A DNA stretch of 64,000 nt from Clavelina lepadiformis (taxonomy: Eukaryota > Chordata > Ascidiacea > Aplousobranchia > Clavelinidae), in the NCBI RefSeq assembly GCF_947623445.1, contig NC_135244.1, forward strand, positions 24,366,860-24,430,859, read 5' to 3'. The position numbers were made by a program, and so were the translations under genes. Below the pieces are notes generated by a model that saw nothing but the letters and a program-made list of their open reading frames with translations, was not told where the DNA came from and made no database searches. Shown in pieces: positions 7,983 through 61,976 of this stretch (position 1 is the stretch's first letter; each line of letters starts with the position of its first letter).

Positions 7983-13258
<5,276 letters not shown>

Positions 13259-22039: not shown

Positions 22040-22969
22040 CTAAATTGGACTTTTCTTTTGAGCCTTATGCTTTTGACTCTGTCCGAGTTTAGAAAGAAGA
22101 ATGTAAACGTTGAAATCGATTTCAAATTTTTCTTCTTTGTTTCCAACATTCCAGATTTTCATCATTTTATTGGTGATTGCTTGGAGTGGATCAAAGCTCC
22201 CGATATCGACTTCCATCATAACCCCAAATATTTCATCAAGTTGATCTTCCTTTGTTTCGAGATCTCCCAAGTCCATGGTGGATGCGAGAAACCCGCAAAG
22301 ATCTGAGAATGTGACCACGTTTTTGATGAAGATGTCATCTCTGCGTTCCTTTGATGGGAAGGGAATCTTGGCAAATATGTCCTTGTAGCCGGTGGTCACT
22401 TCTTCAACTATCCAGTCTTGCCTGGAATGGTTCGACATTCCCAACCTTGCCAAGTCTACAAACAAATTCAAGGTCTCTTTGAACGACGAAGGATTGTTTT
22501 GGATCAAACGGAGTCGATTGATAGATTGCACCCAATATCCAATTATGGCGATGCATCCTTCCGGTTTAAGAACGCGCGAAACTTCGCGAAAAAACTTGGG
22601 TAAATCGAACCAATGGACAGCTTCTCCACAAACCAGCAGATCGACGCTCCCTTCCTTAAAAGGCAATTCTTCTGCTTTCCCAACCACGTAGTTGATGTGA
22701 TCAAATTTATTTTGCTTCTTGGCAACTTTTATCTGATTTTCGCTCGCATCTAGCCCGACAATCTTCTTGAAATACGCGGCAAATATGTTGGTCGCCTGCC
22801 CGCTGCCACATCCGACATCGACCATTAGATCGTATGTCGACGATGAATCGTGGACTTCATCGCGTCTTTGTAAATATTTCATGACTGTTTGAGCAACATC
22901 ATCGGAATAAACGGGCCTGTGCTTGAAATAGGCATCGACCACGTCACTATGCTGGTACAAGGAGGTCAT
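22040..22969 (-). CDS. Intronless class I SAM-dependent methyltransferase
   Basis: This single uninterrupted frame encodes 309 residues, in contrast to the split genes around it. Residues about 45-150 form a Methyltransf_11-type Rossmann domain. Motif I is VDVGCGSGQ, motif II is VGLDASENQI, and then come GKAEELPFKEGSVDLLVCGEAVHWFD-type motifs (GKAEELPF; SVDLLVCG; AVHWFD) and VSRVLKPEGCIAIIGYW. The AxHWFD signature is typical of the group containing yeast Tmt1/Crg1-like enzymes and bacterial UbiE-related proteins, so the substrate may be a small carboxylic acid or xenobiotic, but it cannot be read from the sequence. No signal or membrane segment is present. The start Met at 22969 precedes the conserved YxxHRPxY region (FKHRPVYSDD). 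The lack of introns suggests a retrocopy or a transferred gene. A broken partial copy lies at 25.1-25.5 kb in the opposite orientation. Confidence 0.87.
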   Translation of the reverse strand: MTSLYQHSDVVDAYFKHRPVYSDDVAQTVMKYLQRRDEVHDSSSTYDLMVDVGCGSGQATNIFAAYFKKIVGLDASENQIKVAKKQNKFDHINYVVGKAEELPFKEGSVDLLVCGEAVHWFDLPKFFREVSRVLKPEGCIAIIGYWVQSINRLRLIQNNPSSFKETLNLFVDLARLGMSNHSRQDWIVEEVTTGYKDIFAKIPFPSKERRDDIFIKNVVTFSDLCGFLASTMDLGDLETKEDQLDEIFGVMMEVDIGSFDPLQAITNKMMKIWNVGNKEEKFEIDFNVYILLSKLGQSQKHKAQKKSPI

Positions 22970-25099
22970 TCTGAGTTCACTCGAGCAGCTTTTCTAGTTG
23001 AAAAGTTTAATATTTATTGAAGTATTTTATTTATTGTTTCTTCGATCTTAAAAAACGAAGCAGCTACACTTGATGGCGCTAAAGTTTGCAAAAGCTCGGG
23101 TTGATTGTATAAAATTTAACGTTGTGAGAACCAGCTCAACATTTCTATAATAAAAAGATATTATGATACCAAAACTGGTTTACACTTGAGGCTCGAAATG
23201 CTCTCTCTTATTCTGCTTTTTTATTGCTCTATATCTTGAGGTCAACTCGGTTCAGCCAACATCAACTCATAAAACGAAGTCAAAATCTTATTGACCGCGT
23301 CAACATAGTTACACAAATTATTCTGATGTTTTGAACTCGAATAAAGTTACAGGGAGACGTTAAAGCGATGTTTGGTTTAAAATGCTTTGTTTGCATCGAC
23401 AATAATTCTACCTGGAATTATTCTGACAACTTCGTTCTATAAATTTTGTCGCATCCAATAAGCTTTCTAATCGTGAACTTCACCATTTCAATAAATCTGC
23501 AAAATTGTGAACGAAGGCAAGAAACTTTTTTATAACTCGGACAAACATTAGCACAAAATAATTCAAAGAGAAAAATTACGCCCTGACATATCTAACCGGA
23601 AAAATGCCCTCAGGTTATTCGGACAATCATGAGATGGTTCTTTGGTGCATTCACGGCAAAGGACCTTTAATTCATTGAAAACCTGTAAACTGTCGTCTAA
23701 ACTTTATAGTTATGCCAACGCGTCCACATCAGCCATTGTGAGCGTTTATTACGACATAAAACGACAAAGGGTAATCACAATCATAGCCTCCTATACTGTG
23801 CATGCAGCCCCAACTTTAACTTCCGCTCACATTTACTCAATCGTGTTAAACTGTATGGTTTGGCTCAATCGTGTGCTTAATACGGTCGAAATCGTGAAGC
23901 GGCGAAATAACTTTTGCTTCGCTGTAAGCGTCTTAAAGAAGTTGTGAAACCGCAGAATCATCAATCATTATTACGTCATTATCTCCTCTAACGTCAGCAA
24001 ATCTTCTTATGTGGACATTTTTACCTTCAAGGTCGCGTGCGAGAAAGTCCTAGGCTTGAGGCAAAAAGCTGCTAATAATGTTGATAAAAAGTGTCGTCAT
24101 TTATCAAACGTAGGTGAAGTGTGGAGTTTTAACCCCAAAATGTAACAACGCTGAAAATGGCGATAATGAACAATGGCCGTCTCTTGTGTCCGCTTGTACA
24201 GCAACCAATGCGAGCTTAAATCTTACGAGCAGGTTTCTCTCACTAACTTGTGGCAAAGAATTGCCATGGAAGGTCCAATAACCCTGGTTTGCCCCTTCAA
24301 CGACGACCTATAACGAGCGAAAAATATTGTCTGGCGATATTAGGTCACTTGTTGTCACGTGTTAACAAAACTATTTCACGTTTTGTGGTCGCCGCGTCTG
24401 CAAATTTGCGTCGCATTTAAGTTTTTTGCGTTTCTTAGATGTTTATAGGTTCAGGATATTTCAATAAATATGTTAAACATGTTGCGTCAGATGTCTATCA
24501 CTGGTTCTATCTTGAAACACGTCTTTTATGTCATTATGGTCGTTACAACGTCAGCATTTGCCATAAAATAAGTTTTTAAGACAAAATATTGGTGCTTCCC
24601 TTTTTATAACATGATGAGACAATAAATATTCTCACGAACAATATGGGATTGACAAAACAGAAAAGAAATATGAAATGACTATCTGACTCTGATTACAATA
24701 TTGCTCTTGTTGAAAACATTCAAGCAGCTATATTTTTGGTTGGTGACAGACAGACATGCGACCTAAAAGTGTTCTATATGTTTCAATAAATGTGTCACGT
24801 TGTCAATATTTTATTGACCGAATAAATTTTTGACAGGTTAACTTTAAAGTGAAATAATGATGTAATAAACAAGCGCATTAACTAAGACTGCTGACATCTT
24901 AGCTTGCGGTATGCAGTTGGTCTATGGCGCTGCATTAGCATTTTTCATATGAGCTCAAAGCATTCCCACTCCATTGGTTCATCTCAGTCATGAAGTGTTT
25001 GAATTATACAATTTGTTGATGGCGACGCAGAAAAGGTTTTAGAATTATATAAACAAAGTCAATTTTCGGCCAAGGGCACAGTTTCAAGATAAATTTGTG
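22970..25099. other. Gene-free stretch between the two methyltransferase copies
   Basis: AT-rich DNA with no exon or repeat that I recognise. It separates the intact methyltransferase from its inverted partial copy and should hold the promoter of the intact gene on the right of 22969. The plus open frame at 23642-23947 has no recognisable motif. Confidence 0.5.
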
Positions 25100-27230: not shown

Positions 27231-28386
27231 TCAGTAGAACTGCAGCTTCATGGACACGCGGGTGAGACTGGGAGTTTCGGGGTTGATGTTGCCCCAATCG
27301 GCCACATAGATCGCTTTATTGTCCATGACGCCAACATTCAAAAAGTTAATGTAGGGGCCGTTTAAGTTGGACCCCTTCCACTTTTCATCAAACCACCAGC
27401 CCCCGTCGTAGCTTCCCCAGGAATTAGTCCCATTCACGTAGAAGGGCCGGTTCAAGGTGGGCAGCATCAGGTTGGGGACAGTCCCGCTTTTGCTACCCAG
27501 ACTTAGCACGGTCAAGTTATTCTCCCCGACCACGAAGTCGTCATATTCCGCGAACCCACTCATCCCTTGATCGTCCTCCACGTCGATGCGGAGTCGGACC
27601 CTCAATGTGACGTCACCATCACGTCTCCGGGCCATCAGGTTGTAGAGGTTGTAGTTACCGACCCAGTGTTCGCCGGAGGGTAACCCGAACCCGGTCTCAT
27701 AGACCTCCTTGTCGTCCCTGAAGCTGATTGACCCGTCCTCCCTCCTTTGAATCGTGACCCAGCCCCTGGTGGGATGGAGGGGGTGAACGAAGTCCATATC
27801 ACAATGGACGTGCACGAAGTAGTAACCCCGCTTCAGCCAGATTGGGTAGACCCCGCTACTTCGGTAACCCCGCTTGTAGACGTCATCGCACCCTGTGGGG
27901 GTAAAATATTTTCATCTTAACACCAAGTTTAAATACATGAAAATGAGGACATATACGGCGCATATGACCTTGTACTTGGACATTTACGGCGAATATGACC
28001 TTGTACTTGGACATATACAGCGCACATGACCATATACAGCAATCAACAACAAGCTATACCATGAACATGTCACCTGTGAAGAAATTTTGCTGAATACGCA
28101 GCAAGTTGAAGAAAGTTTCATTTGCTGGAACCTTTGTCACGTTGACGTCGTTTTTGCTGTTGATGACCTCATCAACTTTATGACGTAGCTCCTGCATCGA
28201 TTCCGCGCACGATCCAGCGTTTCTGTAATTTGCGTAACCTTCGTCAAGTTCAAGGTAAAGTTTCAGCGCTGACGTCAGCTCCCCTTCAATTTGCTCAACC
28301 GTGACCTGTGTTTGCTGGCCCGTGACGAGGCCAAAGTTCACATCTTGCAGAAAAAGATAAAAGAAAAGCACAAAAAAGATCTTCAT
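27231..28386 (-). CDS. Secreted fibrinogen-related domain protein
   Basis: This is a two-exon gene. Exon 1 (28074-28386) encodes a hydrophobic signal peptide (MKIFFVLFFYLFLQDVNFG) and a short helical N-terminal part (EQIEGELTSALKLYLELD). Exon 2 (27231-27892) joins in phase and encodes a fibrinogen-related domain: CDDVYKRGYRSSGVYPIW, VHCDMDF, GWVTIQRREDGSISF, GEHWVGNYNLYNLM, GGWWFDEKWKGSNLNGPY. Such proteins are often secreted lectins that bind acetylated sugars in innate defence, but the ligand is unknown here. The first cysteine pair is kept, while the C-terminal pair that usually brackets the GxWWYNxC segment is missing (NSWGSYDGGWWFDEKW). The frame stays open to an upstream Met at 28683; I prefer 28386 because it gives a clear signal peptide. 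The stop is at 27231-27233. Confidence 0.85.
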
Positions 28387-29752: not shown

Positions 29753-31769
29753 ATGGCACAAAAGTATGACGTAAGAAACGAGGGAATAGTGACGGAAGGC
29801 TTCCTCATAAAAAGAGTGAGTTAAAATTATTTGCTGATTTTGTGTTTGACTTTTTAATAATTCTTACGTCATAAAAGGGTCATGTACGTAACAATTGGAA
29901 GACGCGTTGGTTCAGGCTGAGTGAGAGCTCGCTGAGGTATTACAAGAACAAGAAGAGCTCGGTGCCTCGGGGGAGGGTACCGCTAGGAGGCGCCACTTTG
30001 CTCACAACCAACGTATTTCAAGATGGCGATGCTGATGACGTCAGAGTGGTAAATACTCATTATCTTGATCGTTTGTGCGTTTTGTTAAATAAAATCTTTT
30101 ATTTTGGCGTTAAAGAACGTATTCAAAGTGACGACATCAAGCGGAATAGAATACCCGATCCAAGCCACGTCATCGTCGGAATTCCAAACATGGACAGACG
30201 CAATTTGTGACGTCATATACAAGCTCGATTCAAATAACTCGGTAAGTAGATCTTGACGTAATAATCTAGCTTTTGACTCATAAAAGACAGTATTTCTTGA
30301 ATGTTCAGGAACCAAAAATAGGACGAAGTGAAATGTCATCAATGGAAGACGTCTCCACAACACACCATGCGGATAAAGTTAAAAAAGCGCTTACGACACA
30401 AGATGGCGTTGTGAGAGAAGCGAGGGTAATCGAAGGGATCCGCTATACCCAGGGATTCTCAGGTAATCCACAAACACGAGCCTGCAATAACGCTCATTGC
30501 TAACTTTTATGACGTCACACAGGGATGGAGCTGCAGAGGTGGGTGTGGAAGAACATGGGGGTCACGGGGTCAGAGGCCGAAGACAGGGTCAAAGGGTTAA
30601 TAAGAGTCGGTTTACTGCAATGTATGACGTCGGAAGACCGGATCCCGACTTTCTCCGACCGACATTATTATACTTTGGTGAGCTTATAAACGCCTACGTG
30701 ACGTCATAGAAGCAAAGCACTTACCGCCTTTTGCTTGAAAACAGCTGACCAATGAATCGTCGTTGAAAGCAATGTCTACTGCTTACGTCAACAATATCAA
30801 GCTACAGACAACCGCTGCCCCGTCCAAACATGATGACGTCAAGCACAAGTAAAAATTCTCCAATGACGTAATAATGATCCACGCAATCTAACGTTTTGTC
30901 TTCTGACAGAAATAAAAAAATTTTTGCTTCGAAAGATGTTGGCGAACTTCCAAGCGACTTACCTCCTGGTGACGTCATAAAGCGAGGGATTCTTTTTAAA
31001 AGGGTGACTATAAATTATTATGACGTAATAAGGAAGCTTTATTATGCATAGGCTTACCATACGTCCCGTTTTAGCCGGGACTGTCCCCCTTTTTAACGTC
31101 TTGTCCCGGCGTCCCGATCGGTCGGCCAAACGTCCCGGTTTGGCATTCAGTCAGCCAGCATAGGCATACCGCATAGAAGCCATACACGAACATTAGCATG
31201 TTCTTATTATTGTTTTTGCTGTGTAGCGTACCGGTACTTCTTGAAGAAGAATTCGTGATCTTGTTTGTTATTTATTTCATTGTATTCGATAAAAATGTTA
31301 TTGTGACGTCATATGTCGAAAGCGTCCCGCTTTTAAGCCACAAAATTATGGTAAGCCTAATTATGCATGAAACGCGGTTGACAACAGGGCCACATCGTTC
31401 CATCGTGGAAGGCGAGATGCTTCGTGCTGCAGGGATTTCCCGCCGCGCTCTCATATTTCGACCCGGCCAAGAAATCGCCGAACGTCATAAAGAGCTTGTC
31501 CTTATATGGAGCGTCCGTTTTCAGCGTCAGCCCAGCCGCCGCCCAAGTGGGTGAGTCACAACTATTGATGCGTGGGGTCGCACGAACCGTTGTTAAAATA
31601 CGGTGTTGTCGTAGCTCTCAAGATGCAGGATGCTCCCGAGAATCTCTTCTGTCTGAAGTTGAAGGATGGGACGCTCTACCTCATCACCGCTGCGTCCGAG
31701 GAGGAGAAGACGGGGTGGATCAGAGCGATCAAACCGCTATGCGCCCGGCAGTCAACTATGTCGTCATAG
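29753..31769 (+). CDS. PLEK: Pleckstrin (PH-DEP-PH)
   Basis: Pleckstrins are cytoplasmic phosphoinositide-binding adaptors linking PI3K/PKC signalling to actin. Exon 1 (29753-29815) encodes MAQKYDVRNEGIVTEGFLIKR and joins in frame to exon 2 (from 29878), NWKTRWFRLSESSLRYYKNK: the first PH domain. It finishes with NVFKVTTSSGIEYPIQA and WTDAICDVIYKL near 30.1-30.24 kb. The DEP domain follows (IRYTQGFSG; MELQRWVWKNMGVTG; LIRVGLLQCMTSEDR; FSDRHYYTL, 30.4-30.68 kb). The second PH domain starts at DVIKRGILFKR (about 30.97 kb), continues at 31.39 kb with GHIVPSWKARCFVLQG, and ends with LFCLKLKDGTLYLITAASEEE and WIRAIKPL before TAG 31767-31769. Domain order and length (about 350-400 residues) match PLEK/PLEK2. 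A 311-bp MITE lies in the intron inside the second PH domain. The join between DEP and the second PH domain was the least certain. Confidence 0.88.
31049..31359. mobile_element. MITE in a pleckstrin intron, perfect 8-bp duplication
   Basis: The element is 311 bp with perfect 12-bp terminal inverted repeats (TAGGCTTACCAT at the left and ATGGTAAGCCTA at the right). It is flanked by a perfect 8-bp target-site duplication, ATTATGCA, at 31041-31048 and 31360-31367. Subterminal parts repeat CGTCCCG words in opposite orientations. There is no transposase; the small open frame inside (31198-31554) runs from the element into the exon and is not a gene. Eight-base duplications fit the hAT superfamily. 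Confidence 0.88.
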
Positions 31770-34293: not shown

Positions 34294-37200
34294 TCATTCA
34301 GTAATTTCACGTCTTTCAATGCCATAGCCCTATAAAATAAGCAAAAAGACAAAAATTGTTTGCTATAAAAACAACTGAGTCAAGTCACACACCTTGCCAT
34401 GCGGCTTCACAAGTTTAAGCGTTTTTGAACTTTTCAACGCATCAGCGAGCAACATTCTTCGAGAACGAGCGCTAAGATAACCAGAGTTTTGGATTTTTAT
34501 GTTTAAATGAGCAAAGGAGAGGAAGCCATGCAGAACGTCCAATAAATCACACGGTTGGTGCCGCAATTCCATTTTCTTCACGTGCTTCGCGAGGTGGTCA
34601 TCTCCGGCAAGGCTGGATGAGGAAAACGCAAATTCAAAGCATTCCCGGATGGATTTTGTTAAACTTTCACGGCTACGCACGGGTATGATAGGATTAGCGG
34701 CATTATTTGTTGTCGTGCTTGACTGGAATTCAGTTCTTCGATGTTTGAAGCGAGTTGCCTCCATGTCCACAGTATCTGTTGATGTGATGTCTATGGAATT
34801 TTTGCGTTTTCTTAAAGATGTTTGCTTTGAACCATCTTTGTCAAGTTCAAGGTCAATGGCAACGGGATCTCGTGGTAAATCATCGACGATCTTATCCTCA
34901 TCATCCGATGTCTCTCCAGTCAGATCAATCACCTCCGAGACAGTGAACAGGTCGCATCTTTCAATTTTCCTGGCCGTGGACTTCAATTCAGAAACAAATT
35001 TCATAATTTCATTGTTACCTGAAATCCCTGAAGAGCTGCAAGTCTCAGATTTTGCAACAGAGGAGACCCCAGATGAAGTTTTCTTCACACCAAGATTGTC
35101 AACATCATGTTTCTCATCTGCACTCACATGTCTGCTCACATCATCAGGAACGGTGCTCTCATCATCAGGAACTGAGCTCACATCTTGCCTGGAGGGGCAT
35201 TCCCTCAAGATCTCTCTTGAATCTGCAAGGGATGTCTTTTTGCCTTCCTTCCCTCTGCTGCAGCACTGAGATGGGGTAAGCACCTTACTTTCAGTTTTGG
35301 AAACATTTTGGTTGAAAACTTTGTGCGTGGATGTGTGTCCAAGCAACCTGATCCCAGCTCGCAGCCTTTTCATTCCTGAAGATCTTCTGTGCAAATTGTC
35401 TGCAGTGGAACAATCTCCGATCAGATTGAAAAGATCTGGAGGAGTCCCGCCTCTCTGCGAACGTTGGTCAAGATGAGCTGGACCGGGGCATAAGTTTGAA
35501 GCCTGGAACTCAGTTTCATCTTTAATCACCACGACTCGGAGATCGTGACAAACATTTCGATGAGATTTTTTCGCATCGCTTCCATCGCCGCCTGACTTGC
35601 TGCTCAACTGTTTATGAATTTCTTCATCATGGGAAAAATTTTCTTTTTTCATTTGAAAATTCATGATTGGCGACACAACACATTTTCCATCCTTAGCTAC
35701 CAACAGAGAAGTCTTACTGCTCACATAGACCTTAAAAGTAACAAAGTTAGAGTGAGGAACAATTGGTCAAACAAAGTGGAGCTTATTATGAAGACACAAC
35801 ATAACTTGCACAAAAGCCACCGAGGACAAAACAAGGACAGGCACTGGTGAGGTTAATTTGCATACTGCGTGAACTTGAAAATGCAAAAAAAGTCGTGGAA
35901 ATAACAAAGAGATGCGAAGTAAAACAAAGAAAATTGTAAGCGACAATGGCACAAAGAAAAGATGGAATTATCCAAGTGAATAAATTTACTAAGAAAGTTG
36001 GCAATTTTAGAGTTCACAAAATAGCAAGAAAACATGTTCTAAAACAAGTCCAGCAGTTTGCGATCATTGAAGATCGGCTACCAAAGGGGGAATCCCACAT
36101 GAGTTGAGGTGTTTTATTCCTCCAGCCACCTTCCTCTTCACACAACCCTTTATGAAAAAATTTCAAGAAATAACATTTGGTTAATCCTTAATTCTGGCCA
36201 AATTGTAAGTAATTTCCCCATAAGTGAAACCATGAGTTTATTGGAAACTTACTCCAATTATTGAAACAAATCTTGACTTGATCAGAGATTTGGAAACAAA
36301 ATTGCAAACATCGTAAATACTGGGGCCAACTACTTGCAATTCTTTAAGTAAGTAGCGGAAGACAGAATGATCCTCCAGGAGCTGAATCAGAGGAATCGGA
36401 CGATTTCTTTCTTCCATGTCTGACAAATAATTGGACAAATCTCTATCGTGAGCCAAATTCTCTTCAGAAAATGCGTAACAAAAAGCCCCCCTGCAGAGAT
36501 CAGCCAATCTAGCCATTGGTGCTGTGTGCTCAGGTGGAACCACTGCTGTAGCTTTTGATGAATTCCCGTACATTTCCTCGAACCCGTTATGGGACCACCT
36601 GGTGCTAGCATGGGAGAAATTTTTGGGAGTTATCTTGGATTTTAAAAGACTTCCATGTTTCTGATTCACACCATAGGCTCCTTTAACTGCATTAAAAAAA
36701 TTATTAAAAATACAAGAATTTGCGCCATTACTTTAAGCTTTGTCTTCACCTGTGAAATGTCCTTTTCCTTGCATCTGCCGACGTTTCAATGCCAGGCCCT
36801 GAATATAAGAATTTGCTAGAAATCTAGAATTTGTGATAATTTACTCACAAATATAAGAAAAATATCGTAAAATATCCCAAAACTTTTAAGACAGTTTCTA
36901 AACTAAATGTAAAAACCCACCACTTGAGTTTCAACAACCAGCAGAAATTTTGAATTCTCCAAAGCTTTATAAACAAATATTCTTCTGACTTTTTTATTTG
37001 GGAATGCTGAAACCAGCTTCTTGTTCAAGCCAGCAAGTCCGGAGTACTGAGTGAGGAGGTTTGAGGCGTCCATCCCCTGCTCCCTCCTCTCATGCTTGGC
37101 GATGTGGGAGGCAAATTTTGCATCGGTGTCCAGATTGTTTGGAGAAAACACGCGATCAAACACTTCAAGCACTTCCCTGGACAAAAACGTGTCTTTCTCT

Positions 37201-39772
37201 GGTGCAACACATTTAGTTTGTGATTTCTTTAGTTTTTTCTTCAACCGAGATGAAGATTTTTTCTTCCTGGAATTCTTCTTATTGGAAGATTTCGGGTCCA
37301 ACTTCATCGTTTTACTCACGTGAAGGCTTTCAGCATCCACTTCATGGTCACGAGGTCTCATCCTGAGAGTGGAGATCGATGAAAAGTTTTGGTCCCGTTT
37401 TGCGGACAAACATTTACCACCGGATGTGTTTGCAGCAATGTGTGGCGATCGCATAAGCTCCGAGAAAGAAAATCTCTCTTTGAAGTTAATGAAGCCGGAA
37501 TCAGCGAAAGAACGTTGGGTCACATGATCAACTCGTTGCGGATTGGGCGAGCAAAACGTAGATGGTGGATCAGCCGTGAAACAAAAGGGAGACGTATCGT
37601 GGAAGGTAAATAAGTTCTCAAGCTCCACAGGAAGTTGAACCAGATTGGCTCTCGCAACAGGAAGTGGAACAAATGCCTTGGTGTCATGGATGACATCAGA
37701 TGCCTCAAAAGAAGACCTCATCACTTCAGAATGAACATATTCATCTTCCTCAGTTAAACATCTTCGAAAAGTGAACTCTTGCACATTTGAAGCTGACCCC
37801 ACTCCACCACGATGAGGATACAAGGCTGGTGGTTTTATATTTCTGGTTGTGGATTTCTTTTCTAGGGTTCTACTCGGCACTTCTTGTGTTGGCTCGTTAC
37901 AGCTATCCTGTAACTAAAGTAAAAACAGCAAATGAAATACAGGCGGCCATTTCTGATCTCAAAATTTGATTACAGAGAAAATTAAAAGTCAAGTGGAGAG
38001 AGCAGACGTCAAACGCTGACAATTTTCATAAATTCATGACCAGTCAATAAAAAGGCAACAACCAGAGACAGTGGCTAATGTTGCCAAAACTTTAGAGTAC
38101 AAGAATCTACAAATGATATGGGAGTGTTGAAAGCAATGCAAATGCAGGTATAGACATTATTTTGTTAAAAATAAATTGAAACATCCATTAATTCATCTGA
38201 GTGATGTAATCCATTGATGTCATAATCTATGTTTATTACAAATAATTCTGCAACAAACACTAGTACGTACTATATAATAGTACTAAAAAGCTAATTAGCT
38301 TCAATGAAATCTTGTTTCTACCTGAACTTGCCTTGTTTTGGCAACATTGTGGGAGGAGTCTAAGTCTGATGAAAACCAGTTTTGCTATTATTCAAATTAC
38401 AGATAATACAACTAAATGATATAAAGTTGAAAAAAATGTACAACTTAAAATGTAACAAAATTCTGCAAAATTGTTTTGACTTATCATAAATTCTACTTGA
38501 ATAAGAACTCGGTAACAATGAGCAATAACGCTTTTTTCTGATACCTTGAACTTATTTTACCAACAACAAATATGTACATTTTGAAAAATAACTAAATTCT
38601 GAATTCTGTTCAACTAATATAAGACAGATAAGTCATGGGCTGCTGGGCAGTGGAGGTGAATATTTTATGGATTCACTTAACTTACTTGTCAGAGTTCAAC
38701 CAGATACTTCCACACATTGTGACAATGTAGCACCAACAAAATAAATCTTTTCAATAATAACAGCCCCAGAATAGTACATAATGTGCAGATAATAATTATT
38801 ATTATATCATATTATGTAATAATTATGATTATAATCAGTATTTGTAGGGGTCACCAATAAAATAAACATTACACAGTTCTCTCCACCTGACTTTACCAAA
38901 AGTTTTCACAACTAACTTTCTCATTAGATGAAAATTTGGTTAACGCTGGGTTAATAAAAAATGACTTTTCGCCAAGAAGTCCGCTTTTGTTCACGAGCAG
39001 CAAACTTTCAGCGTCATTCACAAAGTAATAAACCGCCCCGGATGGTGACTTGACCGTCAACGTCACCTAAACATTAAACACGTTCCATCAGCAAAAATTT
39101 GAAGACCAACTAAAATTTCATGTGCCATGAGGCGTGACAAGTCATCGCTTCTGATGAGACCCCACCACATCACTGTGAGTGTGCAGGAGGAAGTATTCCA
39201 ATCAAAGCACAGTGAGGAGGTCTGAAAAGCAGATTGTGTTATCCTCTTGGGAATATGTAAGATCTCAGTTTTCTGCAGCTTTAATTTTCTCTAACAATAT
39301 CTTTTGTTTATGTTTTCTCAATCTCAAGTCATCAGGAAATTAAAACTGAGCTAAAGATAGACAAAGAGCTATGAACACTTGGTGGACTGCTTGAATGATC
39401 GCAATTCATTTGGACTCGAAAGAGCAGGAAGTCTGAGCAAACATGGAGCATTTAGTGAATTAAAGCTCATGACATAACATTGTGAAACTGGATCATTTAC
39501 TATTTACTTCTCAGACACTCCTGTTGGCTGCCACTTAATCTACGTTAGTGCATCGTGTATTCAGACCACATAAGCACGGAAGGCCAGGTGGTTAGAAAGC
39601 AAGTCACATGATTTCTGCTTTTTTAAAATTTTCACCCATTTTCATCAAATGTCTAGCACTGTGGATAATTTCTTACCATTGCCTTGAAGAAGTTTTGCAG
39701 CACCAGAATTTCACGCATGAGTGACTCTGTCTGTCGAACGAAGTTTCTTTCATTCTGCTCTAAGACTTCCAT
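34294..39772 (-). CDS. Putative protein: decayed MADS-like domain plus three La-motif-like domains
   Basis: I do not recognise this gene as a known family. Exons read 5' to 3': 39772-39669 (MEVLEQNERNFVRQTESL, LMREILVLQNFFKAM) and, after a phase-0 intron, 39069 down to about 38940 (VTLTVKSPSGAVYYF, NKSGLLGEK). Together they align with the MADS-like domain of the neighbour at 40191-41950. Then come 37918 to about 36918, a small exon at about 36800-36749, about 36690-36247, about 35733-34400, and a last short exon ending at 34294. Each of the three large exons ends with one domain of about 85 residues: VFSPNNLDTDAKF...KALENSKFLLVVE, AFSEENLAHDRDL...SKSLIKSRFVSI, and AFSSSSLAGDDHL...ADALKSSKTLKLV. 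The FSxxNLxxD start and the ALxxSxxL end resemble the La RNA-binding motif (compare LARP6), with a longer middle. A lysine-rich stretch before the first (KKNSRKKKSSSRLKKKLKK) suggests nuclear targeting. Exon joins and the true start are inferred; the MADS-like and La-like parts could belong to separate genes. Confidence 0.55.
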
Positions 39773-40190: not shown

Positions 40191-41950
40191 TCAACTCTTC
40201 CTTCTTGTGCATCTTGAGTTGGAAGATGAGTCAAGCTCACGGGAGCGCTCCTGACTCAATTGCTCCGAGTAGTTCTCAGGAGGCCAACATGTTGATTGGA
40301 GCAGGTCGTCTTCCTCATCAAGATCTTCTGATGACTTGGGACTCTCACGATGAACTTCACAACTTCCGTCATTTTCTTCTTTCACTTTAACCTTGGTACA
40401 ACCAGCTTTAAAACTTTCACGAGTTGAAGTCACCTCATTCTCCATCAAGTGTTGTGAAGCTTCAGTTTTAACCTCTTTTAATTTGTCGAAATCCAGGCTC
40501 TCTCTCCTGTTCCTATAATCGCGATCCCGCCTCCACGAGTTGTTGGAAGGAGCAGGATCATCTCCTGAGCTTGCGCCAGTGCTTCCACAAGACCTGCCAG
40601 TTGGCCGAACTTCAAACGAGCGTTTTCTCTGTAGATTTTGAGATAACCTGAAAGCACTCCGACCATTCGATGCAAACCCAGATGAACGCCTTCTTAAACC
40701 TGACACTGGGTCACCAGATGGTGAAATCGTCGTCTTGCTCTTTGTGAGTTTCAGGGAAGTGCCTGCATTGAGCTTCCTCGTCCCATCCTGCTCGTTGTTG
40801 GTGAAGCCGGGCTTATGGCCTCGATCGAGGACTGGGGTTGAGCAGAAAGAGTTGGACTGAGGCGTCGACTCTTGGGTAAACGTCCCAGAAGTGGGAGGTG
40901 ATCTTGTGTCAGATGTCGGCTCAACACGGGATGCTGCTTGCGTAGGAAGTGTCTGTTGTTTAGCTTCAAGTTCACTGATGTTGGATGGATTCTTCCTCTT
41001 CTTCGACTCATTCATCTCGCTCGTTAACATTTTAGCAGCTCGCTGGAGCAATATCGGATGAGGAATTGTGGCTGCGGAAGAGTCAGAAGAACTCGAATCT
41101 GATGACTCTGAGTCGCTACTTTCAGGAGATGGTTGCTGCTGGGTTATATGAGAAGTGCCCGGTTGTGATGGAACTGGCTTCACCAATCGGATGGGTTGGG
41201 CTCGTGGGATCGATGACCTCACTGGGAGTTTGTTCAACTTTTTCTCGGCATTCAAACTTGGTCGTTGAGTTGGTCTTGACACGGCCGCTTCTTGGCAAGT
41301 TTCCATTTTGTCCACCACTTGGGGGCAGGTTGGAGTTGCACTGGTCTCCGAGGCAACAGTAGAGTTACGACGAACAACGTGACTTAAAATCTGCAATTTA
41401 AAACCTTGATCCATGAACAAGAAAGACACAGGGTGGGTACCTCAAGGGACTTACGCTGTCCATGGTGCTCGCCTTCAACTGAGCTGACGACACATGGTGA
41501 GACTTGCTTCCTAGCAGCCCGCTTTCTTTCAACAGATCAACTGTGACATCACTGTTGGCATAATAATGTGTCTCTCCAGTTGGCGCTTGAATTGTCACCG
41601 TCACCTAAAAAGCATTAACTTTTAAAATACAAACAATTGTATAAACAAGAAATATTGAAATCTTCAGAAATCCTACGGACAATTGCGCCGGTCGCTTCCT
41701 CAAGTTCCATTGCTTTCATCAACAAAGTTTTCTTTCTTTGGAAGTAGACCCTCTCCCACTCCACGATGCTGGTAAAGTCGCTCAACTTCCGTCCTCGTCG
41801 TCGCTTCCGGTTGCGCAAGTTTAAAAGTCCGGAGCTCCCCGATGATTCTGGTGCACCACGCGACGATGACAACGGGGCACTGGAAGTTGAAGGAGCTGAG
41901 TTTGATGCTCGATTGAACAATCTCGGAAGAACTCTGGCAGTTTTAGACAT
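40191..41950 (-). CDS. Divergent SRF/MADS-type domain protein, three exons
   Basis: Exon 1 is 41681-41950 (90 codons), exon 2 is 41455-41604 (50 codons) and exon 3 is 40191-41390, all phase 0, giving 539 residues. After a serine-rich start, residues about 52-120 read RGRKLSDFTSIVEWER, then FQRKKTLLMKAMELEEATGA, then VTVTIQAPTGETHYY. This follows the SRF pattern (KIKMEFI...TTFSKRKTGIMKKAYEL...TGTQVLLLVASETGHVYTF) in order and spacing: a basic N-arm, a helix with FxxRKxxLxxKAxEL, and two strands around a TG turn. The long tail is low-complexity, with a Ser/Asp run (SSDSESSDSSSSDSS), proline/serine stretches, an RDRDYRNRRES patch and an acidic end. A nuclear DNA-binding role is inferred. It is too diverged to call SRF or MEF2. 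The donor after exon 1 (GTCCGT) is weak but keeps the frame and matches the intron position of the paralogue downstream. Confidence 0.6.
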
Positions 41951-49972: not shown

Positions 49973-52419
49973 ATGGCTCCAACTTTAAATGTAAAAACAA
50001 GCACATTAATAGCTAGTGCAGCTGCCGGAATAACACTTGGTAAGTGAATAATATTTCAGCTTTAATAAGATGTTGATTGTCTCATTGTTGCGAGTTTAAT
50101 TTAAATATCAATGGTTGCTGAGTAGTGAGTACGTTGTTGCTTTATTTTTTAATCACTGAAGCCAAACTGCATTTACACCAATTCTTATAGATTCCTGTTT
50201 TGCATGAATTTAGTACTTTCACTTTGTACTCGAGTCATCTGCACAACATTAGCTATTATCAACTCTAAAATGTCTCACACCTGCACAATAGGCCACAATT
50301 ACCTAAAAATGACGTTTATCCTTCTAGTCAATGTTGATAGAGATAGAGTTTCAACAAACACAACAGGACTTGAAAGTTAAAAGAAACAAAAGTGAAGCCG
50401 TATTGTGCTTAAATTGGCAATAAATAAAATGACATTAATAAGTGAATATAGGAGTAATGTCAGCATGAGCATGAACTGGCTCGAAACCAATGCACAAAGT
50501 TGTGCTGGTCACGCTACGAGGAAGATGGGCTAGTATAGCTGGCGCAAACGATTTATAGTTGTGTTCTGAAGTAGAACACCGGATAGATTAATATACAGGT
50601 GTTGCAGGTTTGTACATCATTAGCCAGCGCATGAAATCGACAATTTTGTCAATTAAGAAGTGTTTGTAATCAGCCTCTTTAAAAGGTGATGGATCATGTA
50701 TCCGTTCACAGTTTATTTTTTACAAGCAGGGCATACTTGAGTTATGTACGCTGCAACAGTGAAAACGTTTCCAGATGAAATGCATCGGTTTTTATCGTAC
50801 ACACTTGAATGTGTTGCAGTTAGACGTTCAAAAGATATCTCATGCTGTTAAAAATTAGCGAAAAAAAGCACTTTCCTGACATGTAATCAAAATTATCGGT
50901 GCAACCTCAAAACATTTTCAGTATTTGTCACAGGAGCGGTTGTTGGTTACTTTATCTATCGGCGGCGACGCACATCTGTCGAAGACGCAGATGAAGGAAT
51001 CGGTGACGTTGATTCAATCATATCGGAAAGCGAGGTTGGTTGCTGCTTTCATCATAACTTCTTCCAGTATCACGGCAGTCTCATTGTTACACCACAGATC
51101 AATATAGACGACGATGGCGCTTGTCACAGTGTTTCCGACTCAACATATGTGACAGTGACCAGCGCTGCCACGGCATCAAGGTCAGACATCGGTGATTATG
51201 TGGAAGCTCAAGTCGGTTGCCATGACAATGATGATGTCATTTGTAACAATGAGGAGTCAACCACAACTGACCAAGTGACTGCTTCGAGATTACCCGTTAA
51301 GCCGATGAAGGTTCTGGTGTTGGGATTATCTGAGTGCGGAAAGACGAGCATGCTCAACTTGCTTGCCCACCAACCTGTGCAGGAGGACTACAAGCCCACC
51401 AAGGGTTTCAACGCGATTCAAATTGAGAAGAGTGGAATTGTTGTGAGCATCATGGAAGGTATTTTGTGGCAAGTTTCCTTTTTATTCAACTTTTATGTAA
51501 ATTATTTTAAAATCTTGACAATGTTTGCTTCGATTCTCGCAGAGGTTTGGACTCATTTTGACCTGAAGTTACCGGCATCATGTGTTTATTTGGCTGTCAT
51601 TTTCAAATCACGTTTAAAGTTGCGAAATTTTGACAATATTTCATTTGAGTTCAACTTGTTTTACAACTTTGCCCATCACTTTAATGAAGGTTGAGCGTTT
51701 GACCTGGTATTAATAACTTCAACTCATTGTTTTTTGCTCTAACCAAGACGTGAGTCGGCTACTGTGCGTGTAAAGTTAAGGTTACTTCAGGTCATGCTGA
51801 CTTGTGATGTAATAATAAATAAGTATTGAAAATATTAATTTGTACCTTGCAACTTGTCAGAGTAAGAAATAATTTGCAAATAAACGAATATTTTTTAAAT
51901 TGAATGAAAGCAAGTGAGTATGAATTTGCCTAAATTTTATCAGCTTTCCATCATTAAATTATAAGATGTCGCTTTTAGTGGGCGGAGGATCGGGGACGAG
52001 GGAATATTGGAAAAATTTCACCAACGATACAAGTCTATTGATCTATGTGGTTGACGGTTCCAATGCTTCAAGATTTAAAGAATCGAGGGTTGAGTTGAAG
52101 AAACTACTTGATGAGTCACTACTAGAGGGCATTGCATGTCTGTTAATTTCAAGCAAACAGGTACGAACTTCGACCTTGAGTGTGTGGTGGCGCTACAGAG
52201 CATATATGCGTCATTATTTATGTAATGAATTTTTTTCAGGATATCTCTGGCGCCCTGAAAGCAAATGAGATTTTCACAGCAAGAGACTTGACCGACATCG
52301 CGAAGAAAGGTTTGTCGAACATCACGCTGCTCAATATGATTTGCACTCCGAGAAGCAATGGCTCATCTGATGGTGATGTCATAATGGACGTTATCTTAAC
52401 TATGTTGCAAGAACTTTGA
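49973..52419 (+). CDS. ARL10: ARL10/ARL9-like membrane-anchored small GTPase
   Basis: Exons are 49973-50039, 50922-51458, 51979-52160 and 52240-52419, all joining in frame. The start encodes a transmembrane segment split by intron 1 (ASAAAGITLVFVTGAVVGYFIYRRRR), followed by an acidic linker and then an ARF-like G domain. The P-loop is GLSECGKTS, switch I is PTKGFNAI, and the switch II region reads VGGGSGTREYWKNF in place of the usual WDxGGQ. IYVVDGSNASRF follows, and the guanine motif is SSKQD instead of NKxD. The N-terminal membrane anchor and the altered switch II match vertebrate ARL10/ARL9, which lack the ordinary myristoylation glycine. GTP hydrolysis may be weak because the switch II glutamine is absent. 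Cellular role and membrane are unknown even for the vertebrate proteins. Confidence 0.82.
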
Positions 52420-60463: not shown

Positions 60464-60737
60464 TAAAATGAATAAATCGAACCTACAGAGCTACTAGTCT
60501 ACCAGTTTAGTCTGAACTAAAAAGTTCGGCAGTTTTTGACATAAAATCACAGAATCGTGCTTTCAAAGATGCAAATTTTGGCATGTCCTAAAGCTTTACA
60601 TCGTTGTCCATTTATTGTCACTATCTGGACTTTATTAAGGATTCCGAATTTTTTAAATGGGCACTAACCTGGCTTATTTCTTCTTTCATGAGTGAGGTCA
60701 TTTGTTGCAGGCTGCACTAGGCCTTAAATCAACAACA

Positions 60738-61976
60738 ATGTCTGATGGAGTGACTGCTCTTGTCAAGGCAAACCCCGTCCGAAAGCGATTTGGTCCTAAG
60801 GTGAGCAAAGCCAACAAGGTGCCCGATGAGATATTAAATAACTTGGAGCTGCAACAAGCAGTGAAGCTTCTTCCCGATAATTATGAATTTGAAATTTACA
60901 AGACAGTCTGGAGGATAAAGCAGTCGAAAGCGAAACGTGTGGCTCTTCAATTCCCCGAAGGCTTGCTAATATTTTCCTGCGTCATCTCCGACATCATCGA
61001 AACCTTTACCGGGGCAGAGACTGTTATTATGGGAGACGTCACGTATGGAGCATGTTGTGTCGATGATTACTCAGCACGCGCGCTCGGTTGTGATTTCATG
61101 GTTCACTACGGCCACAGCTGCCTCGTCCCTATCAGCAACATGCCCGACATTAAGATGCTGTACATCTTCGTCCATATTCAGATAGATGTTTCCCATTTTA
61201 TTGACACTTTGAAATTAAATTTTAATCGAGGGGCAAAGCTTGTGCTGGTCAGCACGGTCCAGTTTATTACATCACTGCACACAACCAAGTCGGAACTGGC
61301 TGCTTGTGGGATTGAAGTGATCATTCCTCAGTGCAAGCCTCTGTCACCAGGAGAAGTCCTGGGTTGCACATCATCAAGACTGTCCAAACTCGATGCAGAT
61401 GCTGTCATATACCTCGGAGATGGAAGGTTCCACTTGGAGTCAATTATGATATCAAATCCTACCCTTCCAGCATACGCTTATGATCCTTACAGCAAGGAAC
61501 TTACCAAGGAAGGTTATGACCACAAGGTGATGCTTAATACAAGAAAAAGTGCCATTGATGCAGCAGCAAAGTGCAAAAAATGGGGATTGATCATGGGAAC
61601 GCTCGGGAGACAAGGCTCCTCAAAAGTTCTTGCTTTCCTGGAAGAATCCATAAAAAGAGCTGGAAAGGAAGTTGTCACAATTCTCTTGTCGGAAATTTAT
61701 CCGAACAAACTTAAAATGTTTTCGGATGTTGATGTCTGGGTTCAGACATCATGCCCACGATTGTCCATTGACTGGGGAACTGCTTTTGACAAACCTCTTC
61801 TCAACCCCTATGAAGCATCTGTTGCTTTACAAAAAATTGGGTACAAGGATGTTTACCCGATGGACTTTTATGCTAATGAAAGCAGTGGGGCGTGGACACC
61901 CAATAATGTTGCCAACAGACCAGCCCTAAGGCAGAGGAAAGCAAAGACAGCTTCGAACAATGCGCCAACTTTCTAG
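60738..61976 (+). CDS. DPH1: Diphthamide biosynthesis protein 1 (DPH1), single coding exon
   Basis: DPH1 pairs with DPH2 as a radical-SAM-like iron-sulfur enzyme that moves the aminocarboxypropyl group of SAM to the target histidine of eEF2, the first step of diphthamide synthesis in the cytosol. The 412-residue frame shows [76 protein letters not shown] and [13 protein letters not shown]. The cysteines of the [16 protein letters not shown] and QTSC regions are the expected 4Fe-4S ligands. Length fits the family. The frame stays open to 60702, but the first ATG (60738) fits the family start, and a likely 5'-UTR splice acceptor ends at 60710. The uninterrupted coding region is unusual beside the split genes nearby. 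Confidence 0.93.

Follow-up and report, generated by a model that had tools for sequence, protein, structure and literature searches.

A predicted ascidian gene with a MADS-like N-terminus and three diverged La-motif domains

We describe a predicted gene, designated gene B, in a 64,000-nucleotide window of the Clavelina lepadiformis genome (contig NC_135244.1, positions 24,366,860 to 24,430,859), which appears to code for three strongly diverged La motifs behind a MADS-like N-terminus. The gene model lies on the minus strand from 39772 to 34294 (coordinates are positions in the window, the whole stretch of DNA analyzed), with eight exons and a product of 1050 residues. Sequence profiles of the three domains and structural models of two of them support their assignment as La-motif winged helices of remote relationship, which as single copies are mostly undetected. 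Also supported is triplication within the gene of a La unit composed of a helical body exon and a wing exon. An initial annotation had recognized three large exons ending in a domain of shared pattern; the wing exons, the MADS-like N-terminus, a tandem gene (gene A), the loss of the RNA-end pocket and an intron in common with LARP6 go beyond it. To our knowledge, La-related proteins carry one La motif. We found no literature matching either several La motifs in one protein or a La motif together with a MADS domain in a search that did not extend to two reviews of La-motif proteins, and absence of a triple array from print is therefore not shown.

Evidence for a triplicated La-motif unit

Each La motif is at the end of a large exon that also codes for a linker. 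Copy 3 (about 36924-37193) is in exon 3 (36924-37907), preceded by a linker with a Lys/Arg-rich stretch; copy 2 (about 36253-36522) is in exon 5 (36253-36686); and copy 1 (about 34393-34676) follows the long linker of exon 7 (34393-35730). All three exons are stop-free. There are no stops in the 328 codons of exon 3, the 144 codons of exon 5 or the 446 codons of exon 7, for which order-1 simulations give means of 14.5, 6.8 and 21.2 stops and open frames in 0, 3 and 0 of 2000 runs, respectively. Following each La motif is a phase-0 intron at the same place, and the next short exon opens with a Gly and a basic stretch. These wing exons are exon 4 (36750-36798; 49 nucleotides, GLALKRRQMQ), exon 6 (36082-36147; GCVKRKVAGG) and exon 8 (34294-34329; GYGIERREITE and the stop codon), all placed by the gene model. 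Exon 4 matches a profile in a six-frame search with E 1.3e-5, but that profile itself includes exon 4, and the weak match of exon 6 (E 0.069) is likewise to a profile that includes it. The exon-wise triplication proposed in the initial annotation therefore stands, as does the shared intron position, although the wing had been overlooked as a separate exon; its upper limit for the gene, 39772, is the ATG of our model.

The copies are clearly related to one another. BLASTP among eight pieces of the two genes gives E-values of 1.9e-12 for copies 1 and 3, 1.2e-6 for copies 1 and 2, and 3.5e-6 for copies 2 and 3, with strong divergence (24-30% identity). The initial annotation was correct in describing their middle as longer: relative to La and to another La locus of this genome (L002), there are insertions of about 3-4 residues and of about 11-12. 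When the three exon parts are combined into a profile, the best PDB sequence is LARP6 (E 0.0058); a profile that also includes the wing exons has seven PDB matches, led by LARP6, LARP6, p65 and LARP1 (E 0.005-0.044). Addition of the wings improves the p65 match from E 0.042 to 0.015 and the LARP1 match, which spans the wing, from 0.62 to 0.044. Against five La motifs of the same genome the three-copy profile scores 30.1, and the highest score among 200 column shuffles is 17.5; the genome alignment used for this score (A4) holds five of the twelve La loci, with split exons left out. Its row for L005 carries intronic residues before the exon, so that the first pocket columns are unreliable for L005, and in two other alignments (A1 and A5) the last three residues of the copy 2 row are translated from intron sequence.

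AlphaFold2 (AF2) models of copy 1 (pLDDT 82, pTM 0.72) and copy 2 (pLDDT 88, pTM 0.77) have La and LARP structures as their best structural alignments. In a Pfam search with the whole of gene B, no family other than La reaches E ≤ 1. The La match (E 1.3e-4, 22.2 bits) is under the gathering score of 37.1, which is a curated threshold and not a biological criterion. Taken separately, copy 1 with its wing scores 15.5 bits against Pfam La, and neither copy 2 nor copy 3 alone has a match. The predicted fold is the La-motif winged helix that characterizes the LARP superfamily.

Several searches had negative outcomes. Pfam at E ≤ 1 identifies no RRM in gene B, which agrees at that level with the earlier claim that none is visible, although a strongly diverged RRM could escape; in most La-related proteins an RRM follows the La motif (PMC9458460). 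No fourth La copy appears in the window when 2147 six-frame segments of at least 20 residues are scanned with the profile (best other match E 0.21). In a six-frame search of the genome (209 Mb, 95 contigs), which can miss small or diverged exons, this locus is the only match, both for gene B in full and for residues 1-218 of the 539 residues of gene A.

One gene or several

The splice sites of gene B were chosen by homology between the copies and by reading frame. All seven introns are GT-AG, there is no internal stop, and the only stop codon is at the end of exon 8. Ranked against all 551 GT and 572 AG dinucleotides in the region, using generic weights not trained on this genome, the 95th percentile is equaled or exceeded by five of the seven donors, and the 90th by five of the seven acceptors. 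The remaining sites are weaker: the donors of the copy 3 exon (GTGGTG, 75th percentile of all GT) and of wing 2 (GTAGCC, 72nd) are weak, as are the acceptors of exon 2 (78th) and wing 2 (86th), and a scan with set cut-offs listed two of the seven gene B donors, three of its seven acceptors and no site of gene A.

These weak sites add weight to the alternative that the three La exons come from neighboring short genes, two or three in number, or from different isoforms, and detract from the single-gene explanation. Retention of the introns after wing 3 or wing 2 would lead to a stop within five codons (GEDKA*, VADLQ*), there are in-frame Met codons in the La exons ahead of the domain, and AATAAA is present at 36242 and 36118. 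Nonetheless, all of the exons join in frame, including the phase-1 junction between wing 3 and exon 5 at which both sites are in the 99th percentile, only wing 1 runs directly into a stop, and copy 2 as its own gene would require an internal Met start. We consider separate transcripts a doubtful explanation of the locus.

Relationship to LARP6 and other La-motif proteins

The LARP6 gene of this genome (L007), identified by sequence (E 2.4e-20 for LARP6, 1.4e-10 for LARP7), has an intron in the wing at the same site as gene B and also in phase 0 (LELNKP, then GTKVRRKD), as do all three gene B copies in the model. Four other La loci (L002, L003, L004 and L006) read through this site, and in L010 a candidate donor lies three codons beyond it; the comparison excluded L008, L011 and L012, and L005 was not resolved. 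Since the La-motif exon pair is split at the same place and in the same phase as L007, a LARP6-type source is probable, and the La unit was probably derived from such a gene. The wing intron is not a textbook criterion for LARP6, and sequence alone does not decide which La motif is nearest: LARP6 is best in the PDB, and among seven La motifs of this genome compared (from nine of the twelve loci), L004, which we read from its sequence as LARP7-like, scores 20.1 bits against the La copies and LARP6 17.4.

Gene B thus resembles LARP6 in fold, in profile match and in wing intron, and differs from it in having three La motifs rather than one, no detected RRM, a replaced pocket and a MADS-like N-terminus. 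With LARP1 and LARP1B it shares a La motif lacking an adjacent RRM, although LARP1 has a Gln/Tyr/Phe poly(A) pocket and a DM15 region (PMC11259064, PMC9458460), and DM15 has no Pfam match in gene B. LARP7 and p65 are the best structural matches of the gene B models, and the p65 profile match has a break in the middle region, as would be expected if p65 also had extra length at that point; LARP7, p65 and Pof8, however, combine a La motif with RRMs and a role in telomerase or 7SK (in part from PMC5805746), and none of these is seen in gene B. HEN1, with a La-motif-containing domain, is a small-RNA methyltransferase, whereas Pfam identifies no methyltransferase domain in gene B.

Replacement of the RNA 3′-end pocket

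The pocket of human La that holds the RNA 3′ end includes Y24 and F35. Its other residues are Q20, Y23 and D33 (PMC9705548). The gene B copies do not retain this set. In the order of copies 1, 2 and 3, the Gln position is C/A/V, the first Tyr position F/Y/R (aromatic in copies 1 and 2), the second Tyr position A/A/V and the Phe35 position H/D/K; the Asp (D/D/D) is the sole pocket residue kept in all three, and copies 1 and 3 have an aromatic residue at the Phe55 position. Because most of the pocket is replaced in every copy, canonical binding of RNA 3′ ends by these domains is unlikely, judging by the residues present.

Two alternatives bear on this region. First, the La motifs may now be mainly protein-interaction modules, with gene B making no specific nucleic acid contact. 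The pocket loss in all copies and their strong divergence are consistent with this, and there is a precedent in Pof8, a working LARP whose oligo-uridine contact residues are mostly not conserved (PMC5805746); countering it, the wings of all copies are basic and Lys/Arg-rich stretches persist in the linkers, and we regard this as a doubtful alternative. Second, the gene B domains might still bind RNA 3′ ends as LARP1 or La do, through altered but working pockets, which seems unlikely. In favor of such binding are the fold, the ribose-positioning Asp and the aromatic residues at the first Tyr position (copies 1 and 2) and the Phe55 position (copies 1 and 3); moreover, the La motif of LARP1 can bind RNA without an RRM and contacts the RNA end through Asp346 and Tyr337 as well (PMC11259064). 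Against it, no copy retains the Gln, the second Tyr or the Phe at position 35. In LARP1, recognition of the RNA end depends most on Gln333, Tyr336 and Phe348, and a double mutant of the Gln and the Phe no longer binds oligo(A) (PMC9458460).

A diverged La motif elsewhere in this genome (L006; G000:C1:13494712-13494861) has replacements of the pocket Gln, both Tyr residues and the Phe55 position, and keeps the Asp and an aromatic residue at the Phe35 position. It is in a 475-residue open frame with no wing intron, and may be a second repurposed LARP.

Gene A and the MADS-like N-termini

Gene A (41950-40191, minus strand) has three exons, codes for 539 residues and ends about 420 bases upstream of gene B. 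Exon 1 (41681-41950) contains the ATG, a Ser-rich lead, a basic arm (RRRGRK) and a MADS-like helix, as indicated by the gene model and Pfam, and has a weak donor (GTCCGT, 62nd percentile). Exon 2 (41455-41604) encodes the strand and second-helix part of the domain and is homologous to exon 2 of gene B, and exon 3 (40191-41390) encodes a Ser/Pro-rich tail and the stop codon (0 stops in 399 codons, open in 0 of 2000 simulations). In gene B, exon 1 (39677-39772) includes the ATG and a degenerate first half of the domain without the basic arm, recognized by BLASTP to gene A, and exon 2 (38917-39066) contains the second half, placed by the gene model, BLASTP and profile scan. Exon 2 is 150 nucleotides in phase 0-0 in both genes.

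Pfam matches gene A exons 1 and 2 to SRF-TF with E 1.5e-4 and 21.5 bits (cut-off 26; 17.9 bits for the whole protein), and all four PDB matches of its MADS-like domain alone are SRF or MEF2 (E 0.12-1.2). Exons 1 and 2 of gene B are 32% identical to gene A over 72 residues spanning the intron (BLASTP E 1.5e-11 in a small set). A joint profile of the two genes scores 32.2 against SRF and MEF2 of this genome, compared with at most 17.4 in 200 column shuffles; alone, gene A scores 26.0 (shuffles 17.8) and gene B a weak 17.1 (shuffles 15.3). Fifteen of the 25 PDB matches of the joint profile are MADS proteins (SRF, MEF2, MCM1, SEP3) and one is a glucanase (E 1.6). The other nine, which include the six best E-values, are WD40 or designed propellers; they were set aside as no stretch passes alone, the best single-stretch i-Evalue being 320 in the two alignments examined. 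These computations support gene A and gene B being tandem genes with a common old SRF/MADS-like N-terminus, apparently better preserved in gene A. Gene A resembles SRF and MEF2 in the MADS helix and strands and in its basic arm, and differs in falling under the Pfam cut-off and in a helix one residue shorter; gene B lacks the arm, and the MADS-like intron is placed elsewhere than in the SRF gene of this genome.

Neither Pfam nor the window profile scan identifies a La domain in gene A. Two candidate domains were rejected: a La domain in the gene A tail, for which BLASTP to the La pieces is at chance level (E 3.3, 8.8) and the profile scan has no match, and a third MADS-like segment before La copy 1 (VYVSSKTSLLVAKDGKCVVSP), which was suspected by eye and has no match in the window profile scan. 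Separately, L019 (G000:C5:2081015-2081059) is a partial copy of a MEF2 MADS exon (VIFTKRKFGLMKKA, then unrelated residues), and may be a pseudogene or have arisen by recent duplication of L014. We also note acceptor-like AGs before the gene B ATG (39800-39772) and a strong acceptor-like site just upstream of the gene A ATG (41983-41950), which may be sites for spliced-leader trans-splicing or reflect an operon.

Other features of the window and genome

Six of eight other stretches tested in the window (frames 22040-22993, 27231-27911, 60696-61976, 8734-9198, 29875-30210 and 51924-52268) match ordinary families, namely a methyltransferase, a fibrinogen C domain, diphthamide synthesis, CNNM, a PH domain and an Arf GTPase. 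Elsewhere in the genome, an exon (L031; G000:C9:12557714-12558331) matches bacterial-type cellulose synthase (CelA profile, E 5.3e-29, 106 bits, cut-off 699), although the same search also matches in 11 of 14 control genomes. A cellulose synthase of bacterial type fits a tunicate genome. GH6 has no match in this genome or in the control genomes, and is hence uninformative.

A model for gene B and its significance

On balance we lean towards gene B coding for a multivalent nuclear scaffold that does not bind RNA ends, in which a MADS-like part without its arm is joined to three La motifs on long linkers. Computation supports the La fold and its triplication, the presence of wing exons, the loss of the pocket, homology to MADS domains at the N-terminus and the tandem arrangement. 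According to the model, the La-motif exon pair would have come from a LARP6-type gene and then been triplicated inside gene B, with most of the 3′-end residues lost in all three copies, so that the protein should not protect RNA ends as La or LARP1 do. With the surfaces left to it, the array would bind proteins or else nucleic acid that is internal or structured, and the basic linkers would supply extra contacts. We infer the nuclear location from the Lys/Arg-rich stretches, presumably a nuclear sign, together with a motif in the exon 7 linker (EVIDLTGETSDDED; 34880-34950) in which VIDLT is followed by acidic residues, and which we take to be like a SUMO-interaction motif (SIM); the pairing with gene A and multivalent binding other than at 3′ ends are inferred too. 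The MADS-like part of gene B may pair with the gene A product, which keeps the basic arm and helix, has a Ser-rich tail and could contact DNA.

An extended form of the scaffold model, which we regard as unlikely in its entirety, is that the two genes are a lineage-specific pair whose products form a heterodimer. Gene A would supply a MADS-type protein that contacts DNA; gene B, a fusion of MADS-type and LARP6-type genes, would have traded DNA contact for three repurposed La winged helices and act as a DNA-anchored, multivalent adaptor for RNA or proteins.

A protein with three La motifs, each without most of the RNA-end pocket, behind a MADS-like N-terminus would show that the La fold can be released from 3′-end recognition and put to new use as a repeated module, and would be a case of exon shuffling that still displays the intron of the donor gene. 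Genes A and B also suggest the presence of a MADS-related pair outside of SRF and MEF2 in an animal genome.

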